From Amycolatopsis rubida (GTDB lineage Bacteria > Actinomycetota > Actinomycetes > Mycobacteriales > Pseudonocardiaceae), in contig NZ_FOWC01000005.1 of NCBI RefSeq assembly GCF_900115345.1, positions 310,001-374,000 on the forward strand: a DNA stretch of 64,000 nt, read 5' to 3'. Below, piece after piece: positions 26,882-37,085 of the stretch; the stretch's first letter is position 1; every line of letters begins with the position of its first letter. The translations under genes and the position numbers were made by a program. The notes beneath the pieces were generated by a model. The model saw nothing but the letters and a program-made list of their open reading frames with translations. It was not told where the DNA came from and ran no database searches.

Positions 26882-26965
26882 TTACCGGATATCCCGCACG
26901 CGGCGGGTCAGCTCTTCTTCGTCCGGCAGTGCGACCCGCAATCGATCGTCGAGCCCGGCGTTCAC
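26882..26965 (-). CDS. possible 27-residue coupled peptide after the radical SAM gene
   Basis: A GTG at 26965 overlaps the stop of the radical SAM gene as GTGA, the coupling pattern used by many true gene pairs in this window. It opens a 27-codon frame ending in TAA at 26882-26884. The peptide (NAGLDDRLRVALPDEEELTR and more) is charged and helical-looking. Third-position GC is about 70 percent, lower than its neighbours. It may be real, a remnant of a longer gene, or chance. Confidence 0.25.
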   Translation of the reverse strand: MNAGLDDRLRVALPDEEELTRRVRDIR

Positions 26966-28896
26966 AGCAGCCGCAACTGTTCCGCCTCCTCCGCTCGTTG
27001 TTCCGGCACCTCAGGGCCCGTCTCCCCTGGCGGGTCCGGTTCCGTCCGGGTTTCCGAGTGCGCCCTGGGGGCCCGAGGGTCCAGACCGTGCCGCCGAAGC
27101 AACGGGCCTACCACTGTGGCCAGTCGTTCCCGGTAGCCGCGGTCGACGTAGCTTCCTCGGGCGTACAAGCGGCGGTAACGCGGTGCCAGCTCGGGATACT
27201 CGCGCTTCAGCCACGCGGCGAACCACTCCCGCGCGCCCGGCCGGAGGTGCAGCGGCAGGACCGTCACCCTGGTCGCCCCGGCTTCGGCGAGTTGGGCGAA
27301 GAGCGGGTCCAAAGCCTCGGGCGAATCGGTCAGGTACGGCAGCACCGGCGCGACCATCACCGAGCACGGCAGACCCGCGGCCGCGGCTTTGCGGATCAGG
27401 TCCAGGCGGGCACGCGGGGCCGGGGTGCCGGGTTCCAGGCGGCGTTGCAGGTCGCCGTCCAGCAACGCCAGCGACACTGCCAGGTGGACTGGGACGTCCT
27501 TGCCCACCGACTCCAGCAGGGGCAGGTCCCGGCTCAGCATGGTGCCTTTGGTGAGGATCGACAGCGGGGTGCCGGAGCCGGCGAGGGCGCGGATGATTCC
27601 GGGCATCAACCGGTAGCGGCCTTCGACCCGCTGGTACGGGTCGGTGTTCGTGCCCATGGCGACCGGTTCTCGTCGCCAGCTCGGTCGTTTCACTTGTGCG
27701 GCCAGCACTTCCGGCGCGTTGACCTTGACCACGACCTGGGTGTCGAAGTCCCGGCCGGCGTCGAAATCCAGGTACGTGTGGGTGTTCCGGGCGAAGCAGT
27801 TGTGCGACACCATCCCGTCGGCGACGAAATCGCCGGTGCCCGTCGTGATGTCGAACAGCGGCAGCTCCAGCCCCATCGGCGCGACGCTCGTGACTGTGCG
27901 CCGGACGCCGCCGATCACAGTGCCGTCGAGGGAGCGTTTCCATTCGACGGCCGGGTCGACCAGGTGCAGAAACCGCAGCACTTCGCCGGTGCCGCCGGTG
28001 AGGCGGGCCTGCCTGCGGCCGGGGTGCTGGCGGTGGCCGACGGTGTCGTAGCTGAACGAGAACCGGTCCAGCGCGGCGAACAGCATGTCCACTACTTCGT
28101 TCTCGTCGTGCGCGATGGAGAGCGTGCCGCGCCGGTAGCCGCCCGCCAGGTCGAAGAGTCCGGCCAGGAAGCCGCGCGCCCAGTGGGCGTCCGGCTCGCG
28201 CGGGATCCGCATGAAGCCCACTGACGAACCGAAGTCCGGCAGGTACGCCAGTGCTCGTGCGGCGGCGTCCGGTTCCGCGGCGAAACCGCCCGAGCGCAGC
28301 ATTCCGCACAGGTATCCGGCGCGGTAGCCGAGCGTGTCGTCCGGCGTGCGCGCGAACCGGCCGCCGCCGACCAGTTCGGTGCCGGGTTCCAGGTGCGGCC
28401 GTTGCGCGGTGCCGAGTTTGCTGCCGGTGACGTATTTCCAGCCGCGCGAGCTGAGGAACCGGTGGTCCGGTCCGGCGACGATCCGGGTGCCGTCGTCGAG
28501 CGTGACGCGGTACGCCGGGCGCACCGTGGTCCAGTGCGCGAGCACCTCGGTGGGCACGAGCCTGCGCGCGACGCCGTGTCCGCGCGTGCCCATGATCCGG
28601 TCGCCCGCGCGCAGCTCGGCGATCGGCTTCGCGCGGCCGTCCGCCATCAGCACCGGCGTGTCGCCTTCGAGGCAATACGTGCACGCGTGCGAACACCCGC
28701 GATACGGATTGACCGACCACCGGAACGGCACCGCGGACGATTCGGGCACCCGGTTCAGCACGGACCGGGCGCGCACCTCGTGAAAGGTGACGCCGCCGAA
28801 CTCCGGCGCGCGCACCGAGCGCACCACATCCCCGAAGGCACCGAGACCGGGGAGTGCCGGCTCCTCCTTCCCCGCTCGCAACTGTTCCCAACGCAC
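26962..28896 (-). CDS. Rv2578c-family radical SAM protein interrupted by an intein
   Basis: The precursor is 644 residues; after splicing about 352 remain. The host protein matches mycobacterial Rv2578c (annotated SplB-like): GVTFHEVRARSVLNRVP, then GCSHACTY-CFARNTH with the CxxxCxxC that holds the [4Fe-4S] cluster, GTNTDPYQRVEGRY and LSILTKGTM. The intein sits exactly before the third cluster Cys. The GTG at 28896 (VRWEQLRAG) aligns with the start of Rv2578c; a GTG six codons upstream also exists. Two LexA-type boxes lie directly upstream, so the gene is probably DNA-damage-inducible. The substrate is unknown; spore-photoproduct-lyase-like repair has been proposed for relatives. Confidence 0.93.
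   Translation of the reverse strand: MRWEQLRAGKEEPALPGLGAFGDVVRSVRAPEFGGVTFHEVRARSVLNRVPESSAVPFRWSVNPYRGCSHACTYCLEGDTPVLMADGRAKPIAELRAGDRIMGTRGHGVARRLVPTEVLAHWTTVRPAYRVTLDDGTRIVAGPDHRFLSSRGWKYVTGSKLGTAQRPHLEPGTELVGGGRFARTPDDTLGYRAGYLCGMLRSGGFAAEPDAAARALAYLPDFGSSVGFMRIPREPDAHWARGFLAGLFDLAGGYRRGTLSIAHDENEVVDMLFAALDRFSFSYDTVGHRQHPGRRQARLTGGTGEVLRFLHLVDPAVEWKRSLDGTVIGGVRRTVTSVAPMGLELPLFDITTGTGDFVADGMVSHNCFARNTHTYLDFDAGRDFDTQVVVKVNAPEVLAAQVKRPSWRREPVAMGTNTDPYQRVEGRYRLMPGIIRALAGSGTPLSILTKGTMLSRDLPLLESVGKDVPVHLAVSLALLDGDLQRRLEPGTPAPRARLDLIRKAAAAGLPCSVMVAPVLPYLTDSPEALDPLFAQLAEAGATRVTVLPLHLRPGAREWFAAWLKREYPELAPRYRRLYARGSYVDRGYRERLATVVGPLLRRHGLDPRAPRAHSETRTEPDPPGETGPEVPEQRAEEAEQLRLL
27799..28674 (-). 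mobile_element. intein with degenerate LAGLIDADG endonuclease region
   Basis: A 292-residue intein, precursor residues 75-366 from the GTG at 28896. It opens with Cys1 in CLEGDTPVLMADG (block A) and has block B as GTRIVAGPDHRF. It closes with FDITTGTGDFVADGMVSHN, with the penultimate His and terminal Asn of blocks F and G, followed by Cys+1 of the host. Two LAGLIDADG-like helices are visible, GYLCGMLRSGGF and FLAGLFDLAGGY; the acidic residue is lost in the first (Gly-Gly), so endonuclease activity is doubtful. Splicing residues look intact. Its presence splits the Fe-S motif, so the host enzyme is inactive until splicing. Confidence 0.92.
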
Positions 28897-28904
28897 CCCT
28901 ACAG

Positions 28905-28944
28905 TCGAACACACGTTCTAAAGCACTGTCAAACATATGTTCGA
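28905..28944 (-). promoter_or_regulatory. two LexA (SOS) boxes around a TTGACA promoter
   Basis: TCGAACACACGTTCTA at 28905-28920 and TCAAACATATGTTCGA at 28929-28944 match the actinobacterial SOS box TCGAAC-N4-GTTCGA with two and one mismatches. On the minus strand a perfect TTGACA (28927-28932) starts inside the upstream box, and the downstream box covers the -10 area. LexA bound at both would block RNA polymerase. The region is only 76 bp between sthA and the radical SAM start, so this is that gene's promoter. Confidence 0.85.
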
Positions 28945-30425: not shown

Positions 30426-31730
30426 TCACGAGCGCAAGGCGCCCCGCCGCCGGTGCAGATCGGTCACCGAGCCGAGCGCGGCGTCGAGTTCCTCGCGCAG
30501 CAACGCGGCCTGCTGCGCGGCGACGTCCTCCCCCAGCAACTCCGCGGCCCGCCCCCTTTCGAGCAGCTCCAGCGCCTCCCACGGCGACGACGCCAGCTGT
30601 CCGCACAGAGCGCCCGCGTCCGGCGACGACAGCTGTTCTGCCAGGCCCGCGGTACCGGCGGCGATCAGCGCGGCGACGACGAGATGCGGCTGGGCGTCCG
30701 CGCCCGCGAAGCGGAACTCCAGCCGCGACGTCCCGCACAACCGGATCGAGGCCGTCCGGTCGTCCGGCCCCCACCGCAGTTCACGCGGCGAGAACGGAGC
30801 GGTGCGCAGCCGGACATAGCTGTTCCAGGTCGGAGCCCACACCGCGGACAACGCTCGCGCGTCCCGCAGCACTCCGGCCAGAAAAGCCCCCAGCGCGAGC
30901 GGAAACCCGGCTGGTCCGTCCGAAGCGGACAGGGACAGGTGAACGTGGCATGAATTCCCCTGACCGGGTTCCGGTGCGGCGAGGTAGTCGGCTCGCGCGC
31001 CGTGCCGGGCGGCCACCCGCCGGGTCACCATCTGCAGCAGCAACGCGTCATCGCAGGCCGCGAGCGCGTCGCGATGCCGCAGGACGACCTCGTACTGGCC
31101 CGGGTGACACTCCGCCCGCGCCGATTCCACGCCGAGACCGGCCGTCGCGGACCGCAGATCCGCCAGCAGCGGCGCGAGGCGTTCGGTGCCGCCGAGGGCA
31201 TAGTCCACGCCATGACCGGTGAGCGGTTCCTCTGCCGAACTACGGAAAACCACCTCGTGCTCGATCCCGATCGACGGAACCAGCCCGTGCTCTTCCAGCC
31301 GCGCCAGCTGCGTCCGCACCACTGTCCGCGGCGCCAGCCCAGCCGGTTCGCCGGACGGGAACTCCGCGTCCCCGACCACCGCCCACGTCTGGTCGCCGAG
31401 ACGAAAAGCCGTCGCCGCGTCGAGCCGCACGCGCAGGTCGCCGAACCCGCCGAGATACGGCTTCAGCGCGTCGACCTCCGGCAGCGGCTCGCGCTCCGGC
31501 GTCCAGGCGAAGACGTAGCTGCACACGCCGTATCCGCTGTCCAGCACCTCGGCGGCGAACGGCGCGGCCAGCTCGACCGCCGCGAACCGCGCGTGCGGAT
31601 CGGGCACCAAAAGCACCAGCCGAGCGCCGTCCTCGGCCAGCACTCGACGCAGCACCTCAGCCGCGGCCGAGCCCGCTTCGGCGCGCACGGCCAGCGACCG
31701 CGGCCCGACCGGACGGTCGAACGGGCTCAC
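30426..31730 (-). CDS. glutamine synthetase-like ligase of the siderophore-type operon
   Basis: A 434-residue protein of the glutamine synthetase superfamily. The catalytic half shows the metal and glutamate elements SIGIEHEVVF, ARAECHPGQYEVVL and GNSCHVHLSL (His-Val-His), then SRLEFRFAGADAQPHLVVA. The N-terminal half is divergent from true GlnA, so it is more likely a gamma-glutamyl-amine or related amide ligase, like the PuuA/GlnA3 type, than a glutamine maker. The GTG is coupled to the IucA/IucC gene (GTGA), making it the last gene of the four-gene iron-box operon. A natural inference is that it ligates an acid, perhaps glutamate, to the diamine or hydroxylamine made upstream. Confidence 0.85.
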   Translation of the reverse strand: MSPFDRPVGPRSLAVRAEAGSAAAEVLRRVLAEDGARLVLLVPDPHARFAAVELAAPFAAEVLDSGYGVCSYVFAWTPEREPLPEVDALKPYLGGFGDLRVRLDAATAFRLGDQTWAVVGDAEFPSGEPAGLAPRTVVRTQLARLEEHGLVPSIGIEHEVVFRSSAEEPLTGHGVDYALGGTERLAPLLADLRSATAGLGVESARAECHPGQYEVVLRHRDALAACDDALLLQMVTRRVAARHGARADYLAAPEPGQGNSCHVHLSLSASDGPAGFPLALGAFLAGVLRDARALSAVWAPTWNSYVRLRTAPFSPRELRWGPDDRTASIRLCGTSRLEFRFAGADAQPHLVVAALIAAGTAGLAEQLSSPDAGALCGQLASSPWEALELLERGRAAELLGEDVAAQQAALLREELDAALGSVTDLHRRRGALRS

Positions 31731-33520
31731 CAGGCACCGTCCGGATCGGGCGCGTGCAGCGGATTGGGCACGCGGCCCCAGCGAACGTCGAACTCGTCGT
31801 CGCGTTCCACCTTGTCGAAGCCCTGTCCGGCGAGATGCTCCCGGTTGAGCGTGACCCGCTCGACGTCCGGCGCGAACAACCGGCAGGCGTCGAATCGCTC
31901 GGCCACCTCGGAGTTTTCGTCGCGGTAGCGGCCGACGACCTCGCGCACCAGCGCCCAGAAGCCGCCGCGCGCCAGCCCGAGATCGTCCAGCAGGAGTTCC
32001 GCCCAGAACCGCAGCTGCCCGGAGAAAACCGAGCTGAACAGCGACTGCGCGAGCAGATGCGCGGGCCAGCGCAGCATGTCGGCGGCGGCGTCCGGCGGAA
32101 GGTCCGCGTAGCAGGGCAGTTCCTCGTCCAGCAGGTCGACGCCCTGCGCGAAGTCCTTGATCGCGGTGCGCAGCGGGCGGCCGTCCGCGTCCACCACGAG
32201 CACGAGGTTCTGGCCGTGCGGGCAGAATCCGACGCCGTACTGGAGCAGCCAGTGCAGCAACGGGGTGAGCAGCAGGTCGAACAACCGCGACAACCACGCC
32301 TCCGCACCGCCGCCGGACTGCGTGATCAGCCTGGTCAGCACGGTCTCGCCAGCGGCATCGCGATACGGCAGCGCGGCGAACGAGATCGCCTGTTCCCCCT
32401 CGGCGAGCCGGGCGACGAGCGGCTCACGCCACAGCGCGCCGAGCGTTTCGTGGAACCGGTACGGCAGCTCCTCCAGCGAGCCGAACAGCGGATGCCGGAC
32501 CGAAACGCTCGCGACCTCGCCGAGCAGCTCGAAGCGGTACTTCCCGGACAGCAGCGGGTCGGCCGCGTCGATCCCGCGCAGCCATTCGGTGACCGACGGC
32601 CCGGCGAGCGTCGCCGCGGAGTTCAGGCCGCGGTACACGAGCGTGTTTCGCACGGAGACAGCGGTTTTCACGTCGTGGCGGTCCGGCCGGGAGCGGTTGG
32701 CCAGCGTCCGGACTGTCTGATGTGGACGGTAGACGTCGCGGCTCTCCCCCAGCTCGGCCATCCGGCCGGTCGCCAGTTCGGCGGCGTACAGCGTGCCGAT
32801 GATCTCGTCGGCCTGCCAAGGATGCACCGGCACCCAGACGTAGTCGGCGGGAGCGCCGAGCTGTGCCGTGCGGGCGGTGAACTCGGCGCGGGTCTGATCG
32901 TCCAGCTCGTCGCGCAGCAGGGTTTCCGCGTCGAGCCCGGCCACGCTGCGGAACTGCGCGAGATCGCGGTGCACGGCGTACCAGCGCAGCCGGATGTCCG
33001 CTCCGGATTCGGGTGCGTAACGGGCACGGTCGCGGGCGGAAAACCCGACGCGGCCCTTGTTGAGGACCAGCCGGGGGTGGCCGGTGAGATGACCGTCGGC
33101 GAGGTTGTAGTCCGTCGTGGACAGTGCGGCGGCGGTCGGTGCGCGGCGCAACCGGGTTGCCTCGTTGGCGACCGTCGAGGTCAGCTCGGCAAGGACGTCC
33201 GCCAATCGCAAGCCAGTGAGACCCAGCCGTTCGCGTGCGTCGACGACCAACGCGCGCGGATCGTCCGCCGGGGCTTCCACGCCGTCAGCGATCCGGATCG
33301 CGCTGCCGGGCAGCACTGTCCACGACTCGAACGCGCCTCGGCGTGCTTCGAAACGGTACGAAACGCCGTCGGGCAGGTCGAGTTGCCAGCCGCGGTGTCC
33401 GGCCCGCGTCGGTTCGCCGGGCTCCGGCACCAGCATCGCTTCGTAGGACAACTCGCCGAGCATTTTGTGCGTGACGAGCGAGCCCGCGGCCCGCCAAGCA
33501 GCGTCGTCGGTCAGGGTCAC
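31727..33520 (-). CDS. IucA/IucC-family NRPS-independent siderophore synthetase
   Basis: A 597-residue NIS synthetase of full length. These enzymes adenylate a carboxylate and join it to an amine or hydroxylamine. Motifs visible are the N-terminal Ser/Thr loop (STTDYNLADGHLTGHPRLVL), the ATP-site NKGRVGFSARDR-x-YAPES, the SVRNTLVYRGLNSAATLAG region, and the late YGVGFCPHGQNLVLVVDADG-x-P with the KDFAQGVDLLD that follows in the FhuF-like C-terminal part. The HPRLVLNKGR form differs from the GHPxHPxxKxR form of many NIS enzymes, so the acyl specificity is hard to call. GTGA overlaps at both ends show tight coupling. Confidence 0.92.
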   Translation of the reverse strand: MTLTDDAAWRAAGSLVTHKMLGELSYEAMLVPEPGEPTRAGHRGWQLDLPDGVSYRFEARRGAFESWTVLPGSAIRIADGVEAPADDPRALVVDARERLGLTGLRLADVLAELTSTVANEATRLRRAPTAAALSTTDYNLADGHLTGHPRLVLNKGRVGFSARDRARYAPESGADIRLRWYAVHRDLAQFRSVAGLDAETLLRDELDDQTRAEFTARTAQLGAPADYVWVPVHPWQADEIIGTLYAAELATGRMAELGESRDVYRPHQTVRTLANRSRPDRHDVKTAVSVRNTLVYRGLNSAATLAGPSVTEWLRGIDAADPLLSGKYRFELLGEVASVSVRHPLFGSLEELPYRFHETLGALWREPLVARLAEGEQAISFAALPYRDAAGETVLTRLITQSGGGAEAWLSRLFDLLLTPLLHWLLQYGVGFCPHGQNLVLVVDADGRPLRTAIKDFAQGVDLLDEELPCYADLPPDAAADMLRWPAHLLAQSLFSSVFSGQLRFWAELLLDDLGLARGGFWALVREVVGRYRDENSEVAERFDACRLFAPDVERVTLNREHLAGQGFDKVERDDEFDVRWGRVPNPLHAPDPDGAW

Positions 33521-34809
33521 AGGTCCTCCGTCTGGTCGAGGCCGAACGTGGTGAACGCTGTCCGTCCGGGCAGGTCGTACACCGGTTTTCCGCATACCGC
33601 GTTGAGAATCGCCGCCGCCCGCCACGCACCGAGCCCGAGATCCGGCGCGCCGGGACCGTGCGTGTGCCGTTCCGCGTTCTGCACGAACAACGGACCCGGC
33701 ACGTCGAGTTCGACCCGATAGCCGGCACCGATCACGAGCCGCCCCCGCGCATCGCGGCGGACCGCTTCGCCGAGTCCCCGCAGCAACGGCCCGGTCGGCG
33801 TTTCGGCATAGCCGGTGGCAGCCACCACGGCGGTCGTCCGGTGCGGCGCGGTCGTTCCTTGCTGGACATGCCGCAGCCCCAGCTCGATCCCGTCGCCGAC
33901 GGTCGCGGACACCACCTCGACGCCCGGCGTCAGCGCCGCGCCCGGCCAGCCGCCGCCGATGCTCCGGCGGTACAGCTCGTCGTGGATCTCCGCCATCGTC
34001 TCGGCGTCGATCCCTTGGTACAGCTGCCATTGCGCCGGGAGAAGCTTGTCCCGGACCGCTTCGGAAAGGCCGTGGAAGTACGCGGTGTAGTCCGGAGTGA
34101 ACTGCTCCAGGCCGAGCTTCGAGTACTCCATCGGCGCGAACGCGGGCGTCCGCGCGAGCCACCGCAGACCGTCCACAGCGGATCGCGCACGCAGCAGGTC
34201 GAGAAACACCTCAGCGCCCGACTGACCTGAGCCGACCACGGTCACCGAATCCGCAGCGATCAGCTCCGGCCGATGCGTGAGGTAGTCCGCGGAATGCAGC
34301 GCGAGCACATCGGACGCAGACACCAAGGGCCGCAACGGTTCCGGCACGTTCGGCTGGGTGCCGACGCCGAGCACGACCGCCGTCGCCAGCACCGGTTCCA
34401 CACCATCGACGGTCAGCTCGAACGCCTCTTCACGGTCGATCCAGCGCAAGCCGGTGACCTCGTGCCCGAACCGGCACGACGGCAGCCTGGACGCGGCCCA
34501 GCGGCCGTAGTCGTCGTACTCGGCGCGCGGCGGATGGAACCGCTCAGCGAAGTAGAACGGCAGCAACCGGCCGCGTTCGCGCAGGTAGTTGAGGAACGAA
34601 TGGCGGTTGGTCGGGTCGACGAGCGTCACCAGGTCGGCGAGGAACGGCACCTGCAGCGTCGCGCCGTCCAGGAGCAGCCCGGGGTGCCAGCGGAACTCGG
34701 GACGGGCGTCGAACAGCACCACCTCCAGCTGGTCGAGCGGATCCGCCAGCGCTGCCAGCGACAGGTTGAACGGCCCGATCCCGACCCCGGCGACGTCGTA
34801 GCGCCTCAC
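33517..34809 (-). CDS. L-lysine/L-ornithine/diamine N-monooxygenase
   Basis: A 430-residue class B flavin N-hydroxylating monooxygenase of the IucD/DesB/SidA family. The FAD motif is VGIGPFNLSLAALA, followed by the typical HPGLLLDGATLQVPFLADLVTLVDPTN. The NADPH motif is VTVVGSGQSGAEVFLDLL, and the ATGY motif (VVAATGYAETP) is near the C-terminus. It makes the N-hydroxy-amine that becomes a hydroxamate ligand for iron. Because a decarboxylase precedes it in the operon, the substrate may be a diamine such as cadaverine or putrescine rather than the amino acid; that is inference. The GTG is coupled to the upstream stop. Confidence 0.92.
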   Translation of the reverse strand: MRRYDVAGVGIGPFNLSLAALADPLDQLEVVLFDARPEFRWHPGLLLDGATLQVPFLADLVTLVDPTNRHSFLNYLRERGRLLPFYFAERFHPPRAEYDDYGRWAASRLPSCRFGHEVTGLRWIDREEAFELTVDGVEPVLATAVVLGVGTQPNVPEPLRPLVSASDVLALHSADYLTHRPELIAADSVTVVGSGQSGAEVFLDLLRARSAVDGLRWLARTPAFAPMEYSKLGLEQFTPDYTAYFHGLSEAVRDKLLPAQWQLYQGIDAETMAEIHDELYRRSIGGGWPGAALTPGVEVVSATVGDGIELGLRHVQQGTTAPHRTTAVVAATGYAETPTGPLLRGLGEAVRRDARGRLVIGAGYRVELDVPGPLFVQNAERHTHGPGAPDLGLGAWRAAAILNAVCGKPVYDLPGRTAFTTFGLDQTEDL

Positions 34810-36299
34810 GACGCGACCGGGCTTTCCCGGGTGACGCTCGTGCGCAGGTCAGCCGCGACCGCGGCCACCGCGTCGAGCAGCGCGCGGTAGTCGGCGGGTG
34901 TGGTGTGCGGGTGCAGAAGGGTGAGTTTGAGCCACAGCTGCGCCTCGCCGTCCGGTCCGGTCGGCAGCGCACCGCGACCGATCACCGCGGTGCCGCCCTC
35001 CAGAAGCGTGCGGCGCACCTGCGCGACCAGGTCGTCTCCGGCCGTTCCCGGCAGTTCGTCGGCCGCCACCGGGCGGAAGACCACTGTGGACAGTTCAGGC
35101 GCGCCCCACGACCGCAGCGCCGGATGGTCTTCGACCAGCACGTGCACGCCGGAAGCGTTGGCACAACAGCGTTCCACGAGCGCACCGATCCCCGAAACGC
35201 CGAGCGCGCGCAGCGTGACCGCCATCCGGAACGCGTCCGGACGCCGGGACGTGCGCAGCGAACGGCCGAGCAGATCGGGCAGTCCCGCTTCGGTGTCGTC
35301 GTCGGCGTTGAGGTACTCGGCGCGGACGGTGAGCGCCTGCAGATCGGTCTCCCCGCGCGCGGCGAAGACGCCGGCGGCGACCGGTTGCCAGCCGAATTTG
35401 TGCAGGTCAAGCGCGACCGAATCGGCTAGCTCCAGCCCGGCGACGCGGGAGCGGAGGGTTTCGCTGCAGAGCGCGAGACCGCCGTACGCCGCGTCGACGT
35501 GCAGACGCGCTCCGGTCCGGCGGCAGATTTCGGCGATCTCCGGCAACGGGTCGATCCGGCCGGTGTTGGTGGTGCCTGCGGTGGCGACGACCACGGCCTG
35601 CGCGCCAAGGGGCGCCAACGCCTCGGCCAAGGCGGACGGGACCATGCGGTCGTCCACGCACGGCACTACGACCGGCGCGGGCAGTCCGAGCAGCCATGCG
35701 GCGCGAGCGACGCTGTGGTGCGAATTCGCTCCGCAAACCGGTCGTGTGACAGCGGATTCCCGGGCGAGCAGGAGGCCGAGGAGGTTGGATTCGGTGCCGC
35801 CGGAGGTGATGACGGCGTCCGGGCGGGCGGCGTCCGGGTAGCAGAGCCGGGCGATCCCGGTGGTGAACTCGCGCTCGATCTCGCTCGCGACCGGGGCCTG
35901 GTCCCAGGAGTCCATGGACGGGTTCAGCGCGGCGGCGACGACGTCAGCGGCCACGGAAACGGCCAGCGGCGGGCAGTGCAGGTGCGCGGCGCACGCCGGA
36001 TCGGCCGGATCGGCGGATCCGGCGGCGAGCAGGGCGGAAAGCTCTTCCAGGGCTTGTTCGGCGCCCACTCCGTGCCGAGGGAGCCCGTCGGCGGACTGGG
36101 TGCGGGCGAGGGTCGCCGCCACCGCGGCCGGGCCGCCCGCCGGGACCGGACCGCCGCGTTCGGCCGTGCCCGCCGCCATCCCGCGCAGCGCCGCCGGAAG
36201 CAGCTGGGCCAGCCGGTCCGCACCGCCGGAGCCACCCGCGAGCCACTCCGCCGAAGCGACACCGGACGAGGCCGTCGGCGCTGAGGGCGCATCCGCCAT
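34806..36299 (-). CDS. PLP-dependent decarboxylase (DesA / diaminobutyrate decarboxylase type)
   Basis: A 497-residue group II PLP decarboxylase. Motifs are TSGGTESNLLGLL (phosphate site), SHHSVARAAWLLG, HVDAAYGGLAL and the Schiff-base Lys301 in ALDLHKFGW. Relatives in siderophore operons (DesA, RhbB) turn lysine or 2,4-diaminobutyrate into a diamine. The substrate here cannot be read from sequence. It is the first gene of the operon, with the iron box 13 bp upstream of its ATG at 36299 and an AAAGGCGG ribosome site. The stop overlaps the monooxygenase start (GTGA). Confidence 0.9.
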   Translation of the reverse strand: MADAPSAPTASSGVASAEWLAGGSGGADRLAQLLPAALRGMAAGTAERGGPVPAGGPAAVAATLARTQSADGLPRHGVGAEQALEELSALLAAGSADPADPACAAHLHCPPLAVSVAADVVAAALNPSMDSWDQAPVASEIEREFTTGIARLCYPDAARPDAVITSGGTESNLLGLLLARESAVTRPVCGANSHHSVARAAWLLGLPAPVVVPCVDDRMVPSALAEALAPLGAQAVVVATAGTTNTGRIDPLPEIAEICRRTGARLHVDAAYGGLALCSETLRSRVAGLELADSVALDLHKFGWQPVAAGVFAARGETDLQALTVRAEYLNADDDTEAGLPDLLGRSLRTSRRPDAFRMAVTLRALGVSGIGALVERCCANASGVHVLVEDHPALRSWGAPELSTVVFRPVAADELPGTAGDDLVAQVRRTLLEGGTAVIGRGALPTGPDGEAQLWLKLTLLHPHTTPADYRALLDAVAAVAADLRTSVTRESPVAS

Positions 36300-36312
36300 G
36301 GAGCCGCCTTTC

Positions 36313-36331
36313 TTAGGGTAACCTTGCCTTA
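36313..36331 (-). promoter_or_regulatory. IdeR/DmdR iron box before the siderophore-type operon
   Basis: Read on the minus strand it is TAAGGCAAGGTTACCCTAA, matching the iron-box consensus TTAGGTTAGGCTAACCTAA at 14 of 19 positions, including the AGG...AGG and CCTAA ends. It lies 13 bp upstream of the decarboxylase ATG. Iron-loaded IdeR/DmdR would block transcription there, so the operon should be on in iron starvation. Confidence 0.8.
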
Positions 36332-36473: not shown

Positions 36474-37085
36474 TCAGCGCGGCGGAGCGAGCCCGCGCAC
36501 CTGCTCGAAGACGTCGCCGCCGGTCGGCAGCACCGGCGTGGTCAGCCCGTTGTCCACATAGGACCGCACCTGCTCACGGCACGATTCGACGCGGCCGAGC
36601 GCGGCCTCGGTGGGACACACGAAAATCCGGGCCGACGACCTCGTGTACCTTCGGCACGCCCGAAGCGGCGAGCCAGTTCGTGCTCGCTCCGTCTGTCTCT
36701 TCCGCAGCCAGCCGCAGCATGCCCGGCCGCAGCGCCGCCAGCATGATCGACGGCACCGGATCGGCCGCTCGCGCCAAGCGGAACTTGCTGACCGAGAACG
36801 TCTCGTACTCCTCGGTCACCTTCTCCCCCGCCAACGCCGAACGCAGGAACCGCACTGTGTCGCGGATGCGCCTGGCTTGAGCCAAGGGGTGGTTCCGACC
36901 GGACCGAAACGCGGGATCGCGTCGGCGTGCCGGCTCTAAGGCGATCCCGCCGCGACGGCGAAGCTGGCACGATCAAACACAGCCAGCGCGAGCGGCGCGT
37001 CGGCACTCCAGACGGCGGTGCACCCGAGATCCGGCAGCTGCTCGACGAGCGGGACGCCGGTGAGCGGGATCGTCAACCCCAGCGG
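36474..37085 (-). pseudogene. decayed luciferase-like F420-dependent oxidoreductase
   Basis: Fragments of one protein lie in different frames: an N-terminal piece LTIPLTGVPLVEQLPDLG, a central piece IRDTVRFLRSALAGEKVTEE through LAALRPGMLRLAAEETDGA, and a C-terminal piece ARIFVCPTEAALGRVESC through FEQVRGLAPPR before a TGA at 36474. These match bacterial luciferase-like (LLM) F420 oxidoreductases, but the start codon, much of the N-terminal half and the reading frame near 36635 and 36890 are lost. It directly follows the S9 peptidase gene. Confidence 0.8.

Follow-up and report, generated by a model that had tools for sequence, protein, structure and literature searches.

Hydroxamate assembly in known siderophore pathways

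Hydroxamate assembly by non-ribosomal peptide synthetase-independent siderophore (NIS) synthetases is taught with an acyl-CoA N-acyltransferase step. In the alcaligin (AlcABC) and bisucaberin/putrebactin pathways, which have a single type C NIS synthetase, such an acyltransferase makes the succinyl hydroxamate. The desferrioxamine pathways (DesABCD in Streptomyces, DfoJAC in Pantoea and Erwinia) also rely on a decarboxylase, an amine N-monooxygenase and one type C synthetase. A comparable operon is present in a 64,000-nucleotide stretch of the Amycolatopsis rubida genome (NCBI RefSeq assembly GCF_900115345.1, contig NZ_FOWC01000005.1, positions 310,001 to 374,000 of the forward strand; hereafter the window). 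Its four genes encode a pyridoxal phosphate (PLP)-dependent decarboxylase (DC), a flavin N-monooxygenase (MO), an NIS synthetase and a glutamine synthetase (GS)-fold ligase. Unlike the desferrioxamine systems, the operon lacks a DesC acyltransferase and has the GS-fold ligase instead, and its synthetase and decarboxylase fall outside the clades of the Pantoea Dfo-type genes.

The rhizobactin 1021/schizokinen pathway (RhbABCDEF) uses the same decarboxylase and N-hydroxylase families as the window, whereas the ligase loci described below, except those of Crossiella, carry a GS ligase and no RhbD-type acyltransferase. In contrast to citrate-type pathways (rhizobactin, aerobactin), the window has no type A (citrate) synthetase, and the only IucA_IucC gene found by a profile search of the genome is the type C one. 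Relatives of the ligase are known from another context, since the gamma-glutamylamide synthetases GlnA4, PauA, PuuA and IpuC begin amine catabolism. These enzymes have the GS fold, keep the ATP, metal and glutamate residues and have lost the ammonium site, as has the window ligase, but the gene for the latter belongs to a siderophore operon, and the siderophore loci that were read showed no gene related to the PF07722 hydrolase. For GlnA4, the start of amine catabolism is stated in a passage of PMC6529630.

The favoured explanation, with a probability of about 0.6, is that this is an NIS hydroxamate siderophore operon in which a gamma-glutamylamide-synthetase-type ligase replaces the acyl-CoA N-acyltransferase (DesC/RhbD). 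That the ligase has taken over from the acyltransferase, with glutamate as donor, is itself likely; the full oligomer scheme proposed below, built by analogy, is tentative. An earlier note on this DNA had suggested that the GS-like enzyme supplies the acyl-transfer step, for example by gamma-glutamylating the hydroxylated diamine. Sequence comparisons lend support to this suggestion through the near-complete exclusion of the acyltransferase from ligase loci, its genome-wide absence in the eight tested hosts of the four-gene operon outside Streptomyces, the retention of the ATP and glutamate sites (but for N264) together with loss of the ammonium site, and a synthetase clade tied to the ligase.

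Distribution of the ligase and of the acyltransferase

Ligase loci were collected with the GS-like protein as query against a single genome of each species, and the 80 best of 109 matches yielded 78 distinct loci (L032-L109). Group A comprises the window and L032-L081 (51 loci) from Amycolatopsis, Actinokineospora, Actinophytocola and three Streptomyces. The order DC-MO-NIS-GS, for which the earlier note had proposed a search, is kept in 50 of these 51 loci, window included, L070 being the exception, and this recurrence rules out a chance neighbourhood of four genes. The arrangement is not peculiar to the strain but widespread in actinomycetes (78 loci with ligase and NIS synthetase). Among 200 genomes of the host family, a close GS-like protein (at least 54% identity) occurs in 29 and a close synthetase (at least 70%) in the same 29; the ligase is co-operonic and co-inherited with the synthetase. 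In the homologue search, the 8000 best candidates were scored and the best 120 of 297 listed. A search of plasmids found no close ligase (best 34.5% identity among the matches listed, with all 399 records below 60%).

Group B consists of 28 loci (L082-L109) whose GS-like proteins are 34-40% identical, in Streptomyces, Nonomuraea, Nocardiopsis, Micromonospora, Crossiella, two metagenome-assembled genomes and Tsukamurella (L094). The operons are mostly larger, and 27 of the 28 have two NIS synthetases, L094 having one. A DC gene is found in 25 loci, an MO gene in 26 and an NIS gene in all 28. As in RhbABCDEF, a type A synthetase stands beside a type C one in 15 loci and a diaminobutyrate-type (RhbA-like) aminotransferase is present in 13; two type C synthetases occur in 12. 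In L082, the one group B locus compared with solved structures, the first synthetase is of type A (IucA 180 bits) and the second of type C.

The acyltransferase profile (DesC/RhbD/IucB-type) was seeded with three sequences: the N-terminal part of the Pantoea Dfo-type fusion protein, the RhbD-type protein of S. meliloti and a GNAT encoded between two NIS genes of a Streptomyces plasmid. Gene names for S. meliloti Rhb were assigned by order and homology, the record being unannotated. The profile was iterated over loci that were later classified with it; the 40 family loci compared later took no part in its building. In the ligase loci ACYLTRANSFERASE is gone: the profile has no match in 77 of the 79 GS loci, and both exceptions are from Crossiella. 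For comparison, 70 further NIS loci were used, namely 27 phylum-wide loci (every match of that search except the window), 40 from the family, hand-picked from about 90 places below the identity of the GS-linked group, and three plasmid references. This set includes 52 loci with DC and MO but without GS, one locus (L170) with both enzymes and 17 loci without DC or MO. An acyltransferase is present in 42 of the 52, two of which are profile seeds, and none is local in the other 10. These ten are two-synthetase DC-MO loci (L163, L164, L165, L167, L168, L171-L174 and L184); since each of their genomes (10/10) encodes a strong PF13523 protein elsewhere (141-158 bits), the acyltransferase may act there in trans.

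Genome-wide, the highest PF13523 score lay between 22.6 and 48.9 bits in each of seven group A genomes (that of the window and six others) and was 31 bits in an eighth (L054); L060 is apparently the same genome as G132, already tested, and was not counted twice. By comparison, positive controls, picked because their locus shows an acyltransferase, gave 173-175 bits in 5 of 5 genomes, and all 15 tested genomes whose NIS locus is without the ligase have a strong PF13523 protein (141-175 bits). The earlier note had seen no acyltransferase in the operon and had named a DesC-like enzyme elsewhere as a possible counter-finding; the operon indeed contains none, and across the window genome PF13523 gave three weak matches (best 42.9 bits), all ordinary GNATs by eye. 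Of the 16 group B genomes tested outside Crossiella, six scored below 50 bits or gave no match. The acyltransferase thus seems to be missing altogether from these six and from all eight group A genomes tested outside Streptomyces.

These results bear on the proposal that the operon is simply of the desferrioxamine type (DesABCD), with its acyltransferase provided in trans from elsewhere in the genome. The ten family genomes with two-synthetase loci and an acyltransferase only elsewhere would be precedents for it. However, no such protein was detected in the window genome or in seven other tested group A genomes outside Streptomyces, and in a quick tree the window synthetase lies outside a 12-row clade of Pantoea Dfo-type and single-synthetase acyltransferase-linked synthetases, which makes this proposal highly improbable.

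The ligase, its partner enzymes and the proposed product

The window ligase was aligned with E. coli GlnA, PuuA and IpuC and with 77 relatives (77 of the 78 loci; in L044 the GS gene was not called, though it is present by tblastn). Residues E129, E131, E212, E220, G265, H269, H271, S273, R321, R339, R344, E357 and R359 are invariant in the 77 relatives, in which the two-metal, ATP and glutamate residues are kept with the exception of K352 and of N264, where the window ligase has Q. Of the ammonium and flap residues of glutamine synthetase I (GlnA), D50, Y179 and E327 are S, V and F in the window ligase, so that the ammonium site is lost (Y179 to V, E327 to F); the relatives, too, have lost Y179 and E327, and position 50 is not conserved among them. 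A passage of PMC6529630 describes GlnA4 as a gamma-glutamylethanolamide synthetase with the same residue pattern, with F331 in place of E327, and gives E131, G265, R321, R359 and N264 as the five glutamate-coordinating residues. Judged by its residues, which agree apart from N264, the window enzyme looks like a gamma-glutamylamide synthetase of the GlnA4/PauA type. Glutamyl transfer to a hydroxylamine is chemically feasible, as the classical GS hydroxylamine assay demonstrates.

Another carboxylate, such as succinate, 2-oxoglutarate, malate or acetate, could be the one with which the ligase closes the hydroxamate, which would give an ordinary succinyl- or acetyl-type hydroxamate by an ATP-dependent route. 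This would account for the loss of the acyltransferase equally well, and N264 is not kept, but four of the five glutamate-coordinating residues (E131, G265, R321 and R359) are invariant in the 77 relatives. Moreover, among loci with DC and MO the PLP decarboxylase c7, discussed below, occurs only alongside the ligase, and this may point to an amino acid as the acyl unit. Use of another carboxylate is therefore rather improbable.

In a ligase tree of 40 chosen rows, the ligases of group A make up a single clade (100/100), and those of group B join a GlnA4-type paralogue (C23) of the window genome (100/99). The gene for C23, the nearest protein to the ligase family in that genome, overlaps with a gene of the PF07722 family (gamma-glutamyl hydrolase type), so that C23 looks like a catabolic GlnA4-type enzyme; the two genes (L162:7255-9313) are likely a catabolic pair. 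By the same token, the operon ligase could be a tailoring or disposal enzyme that glutamylates the free amine of a finished siderophore or surplus diamine, the hydroxamate acyl group coming from an unrecognised acyltransferase. Crossiella-type loci, which retain both enzymes, would agree with such a role. Against it stand the lack of PF07722 relatives in the siderophore loci read, the lack of a DesC-like acyltransferase in the eight group A genomes outside Streptomyces and the common inheritance of ligase and synthetase within one operon, and on balance we regard it as unlikely.

Among solved structures, the window NIS synthetase matches AlcC best (313 bits), followed by DesD (303), NcdF (302), IucC (264) and IucA (37). 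It is of type C by these matches, which supplies the typing that the earlier note had recommended. The synthetase tree used 62 chosen type C rows, drawn together with the decarboxylase rows from 57 loci, and was made by a quick method with a midpoint root. A single clade (SH-aLRT 98) unites all 30 rows of GS loci and contains no row from acyltransferase-only loci. A synthetase clade tied to the ligase in this way is in keeping with adaptation of the synthetase to another acyl unit.

The decarboxylase scores 275.6 bits with the RhbB-family model NF052646, below its cut-off of 900. Among solved relatives of the monooxygenase, 6xbb is the best match (331 bits), with 281 bits for 5o8p (desferrioxamine biosynthesis) and 272 bits for the putrescine N-hydroxylase 7us3. 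The decarboxylase and flavin monooxygenase families for the supply of a hydroxylated amine are present, and the corresponding activities are predicted. In a tree of 54 chosen rows, the Pantoea Dfo-type gene and most single-synthetase acyltransferase-linked rows make up a 10-row clade that does not include the window decarboxylase. In the Streptomyces loci L065 and L072, a diaminobutyrate-type aminotransferase gene lies directly upstream, inside the operon, and that of L065 passes TIGR00709 (512 versus 401.6). The window genome encodes EctB (653 bits), a diaminobutyrate source, and a second aminotransferase, which resembles diaminobutyrate aminotransferases most but scores below the cut-off. 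On these grounds, 1,3-diaminopropane is moderately favoured as the diamine over the cadaverine of desferrioxamine.

A further gene, c7, encodes a fold III PLP decarboxylase (Pfam Orn_Arg_deC_N) and is found in 22 of the 28 group B loci (for example L082:535-1812). Such fold III PLP enzymes decarboxylate amino acids at the alpha carbon. Among loci with DC and MO, c7 is present in none of 50 in group A, 22 of 25 in group B and none of 52 without GS, as well as in L170, where GS is present; the three group B DC-MO operons without it begin at most 936 bases from the locus edge. It is accompanied by a second synthetase in all c7-bearing DC-MO loci but L094. A simple account of this distribution is that the ligase installs glutamate, which may later be trimmed to 4-aminobutyryl in citrate-type operons. 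In group A the alpha-carboxylate would have to stay, as it is the sole carboxylate available to the lone synthetase. The presence of c7 homologues in 10 NIS loci that lack DC or MO would agree with a rival account, in which c7 makes or finishes another amine.

In the proposed pathway, the decarboxylase would convert L-2,4-diaminobutyrate to a diamine, most likely 1,3-diaminopropane, and the flavoenzyme, judging from its family, would hydroxylate one of the amines. The GS-like ligase would then use ATP to activate the gamma-carboxylate of glutamate and transfer the glutamyl group to the hydroxylamine nitrogen, giving a gamma-glutamyl hydroxamate. By analogy with AlcC and DesD, the type C synthetase would adenylate the remaining alpha-carboxylate and link it to the primary amine of a further unit, and two or three units would thereby form a linear chain or a macrocycle in which the alpha-amino groups stay free. 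In the two-synthetase operons of group B, the same type of ligase would acylate the arms of a citrate-type siderophore. We tentatively propose a family of gamma-glutamyl-hydroxamate siderophores, in which oligomers of N-hydroxy-N-(gamma-glutamyl)-diamine might be joined by type C synthetases through the alpha-carboxylate, with free alpha-amino groups, and in which c7 might trim the acyl unit to 4-aminobutyryl in two-synthetase operons. For the 1,3-diaminopropane series, the computed [M+H]+ is 403.2300 for the cyclic dimer (C16H30N6O6) and 604.3413 for the cyclic trimer. The ring of the cyclic dimer counts 20 members, as do those of putrebactin and alcaligin. Fradiamine, described as citrate bearing two alkyl amines in a passage of a review (PMC6836290), was set aside as the window product, its citrate backbone being at odds with a single type C synthetase; group B could still fit.

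Several observations weigh against replacement of the acyltransferase by a glutamate ligase. In the three Streptomyces strains with the four-gene operon, strong PF13523 proteins (158-176 bits) are encoded elsewhere in the genome and are inferred to belong to these strains' own desferrioxamine genes, and 7 of the 16 non-Crossiella group B genomes score 134-173 bits, with three Nonomuraea at 101-106. The Crossiella-type loci L087, L088 and L170 carry both the GS ligase and the acyltransferase (PF13523 164 bits in the Crossiella genome). These loci have AT-DC-MO-GS on one strand and an acyltransferase gene, two NIS genes and c7 on the other (AT, acyltransferase), and possibly make an asymmetric product. 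A GNAT of another family, a potential acyltransferase, adjoins the operon in eight Nocardiopsis loci (Acetyltransf_1 at L085:2462-3052; also L090, L098, L099, L100, L106, L107 and L108) and has no match to the DesC/RhbD profile. In Actinokineospora xionganensis, the GS ligase gene (L070:9983-11323) stands without DC, MO or NIS in the 21 kb read. At position 264 of the glutamate site, the ligases have Q, T, A, E or, in rare cases, L. Proteins of the GlnA4 type, 55-58% identical to a group B ligase, are encoded outside NIS loci in six genomes, and because of this closeness a role in amine disposal is conceivable for the group B enzymes. Lastly, the decarboxylase tree leaves the substrate unsettled, because the half with the window enzyme also includes L140 and L142 (single-synthetase, acyltransferase-linked) as well as six rows of two-synthetase or aminotransferase loci that have the acyltransferase only, and the RhbB-type decarboxylase of S. 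meliloti sits in the opposite half.

Operon layout, iron box and significance

The families and coordinates of the four genes (Table 1), their GTGA overlaps and the iron box are all as the earlier note had described them. All three junctions of the operon are 4-base GTGA overlaps, and the iron box is about 30 bases 5' of the decarboxylase start codon.

Table 1. Genes and operator site of the window operon
Feature	Position in the window	Strand	Supporting matches
PLP-dependent decarboxylase (DC)	34806..36299	-	Pyridoxal_deC 149 bits; best family match RhbB (L-2,4-diaminobutyrate decarboxylase)
Flavin N-monooxygenase (MO), predicted diamine hydroxylase	33517..34809	-	Lys_Orn_oxgnase 350 bits
NIS synthetase, type C (AlcC/DesD/NcdF-like)	31727..33520	-	IucA_IucC 237 bits + FhuF 107 bits
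GS-fold ligase, predicted gamma-glutamyl hydroxamate (amide) synthetase	30426..31730	-	Gln-synt_C 160 bits
Iron box (IdeR/DmdR1-type operator) TAAGGCAAGGTTACCCTAA	36313..36331	-	14/19 positions versus consensus

Siderophore genes of Streptomyces coelicolor are controlled by DmdR1 iron boxes, according to a passage of PMC12161575. Upstream regions of the group A operons, the window included, were scored against an iron-box consensus; 38 of 50 reach at least 14 and 45 of 50 at least 12. Among random 360-base windows, taken from all 75 scanned loci and in some cases including a real box, 19 of 1500 reach at least 14 and 35 of 1500 at least 12. The iron box exceeds chance expectation, and iron starvation would lift IdeR/DmdR1-type repression at this site. 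Most group A boxes are near -30 (exceptions L051, L056 and L069). Scores fall below 12 in five of the 50 loci (L036, L071, L076, L077 and L078), of which L077 and L078 were scanned from the wrong start. In group B, 6 of 25 loci reach 12; for many of these loci the scan began at the decarboxylase gene although another gene comes first, and the count is given no weight.

The host Amycolatopsis genome measures 9.87 Mb, and its nearest named relatives by ligase include A. circi, A. nivea, A. dendrobii and A. echigonensis. The operon is flanked by an S9 peptidase gene upstream and a pyridine-nucleotide oxidoreductase gene downstream, each present in only some relatives; since the flanking genes vary while the four remain together, these four genes are taken as the unit. 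Just upstream of the operon, at 36477..37079 (- strand), is the frame-shifted, decayed remnant of a luciferase-like (LLM) flavin oxidoreductase gene, which is intact in L036 (318 aa) and for which no gene is called in L032, L033 and L048. Elsewhere in the window, 26962..28914 (- strand) encodes an intein-interrupted Rv2578c-family radical SAM protein (NF038136 845.7 bits, cut-off 700).

No description of a GS ligase in an NIS cluster was recognised in the open-licence papers searched. On the sequence evidence, this appears to be a variant of NIS hydroxamate assembly in which an ATP-dependent GS-fold ligase stands in for the acyl-CoA N-acyltransferase. If this is true across several actinomycete families, orphan NIS clusters (the 78 loci with ligase and synthetase) would gain a testable product class, and structure predictions that assume acetyl or succinyl groups would be wrong for these clusters. 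A relative of glutamine synthetase would then also acquire a biosynthetic role with hydroxylamines.

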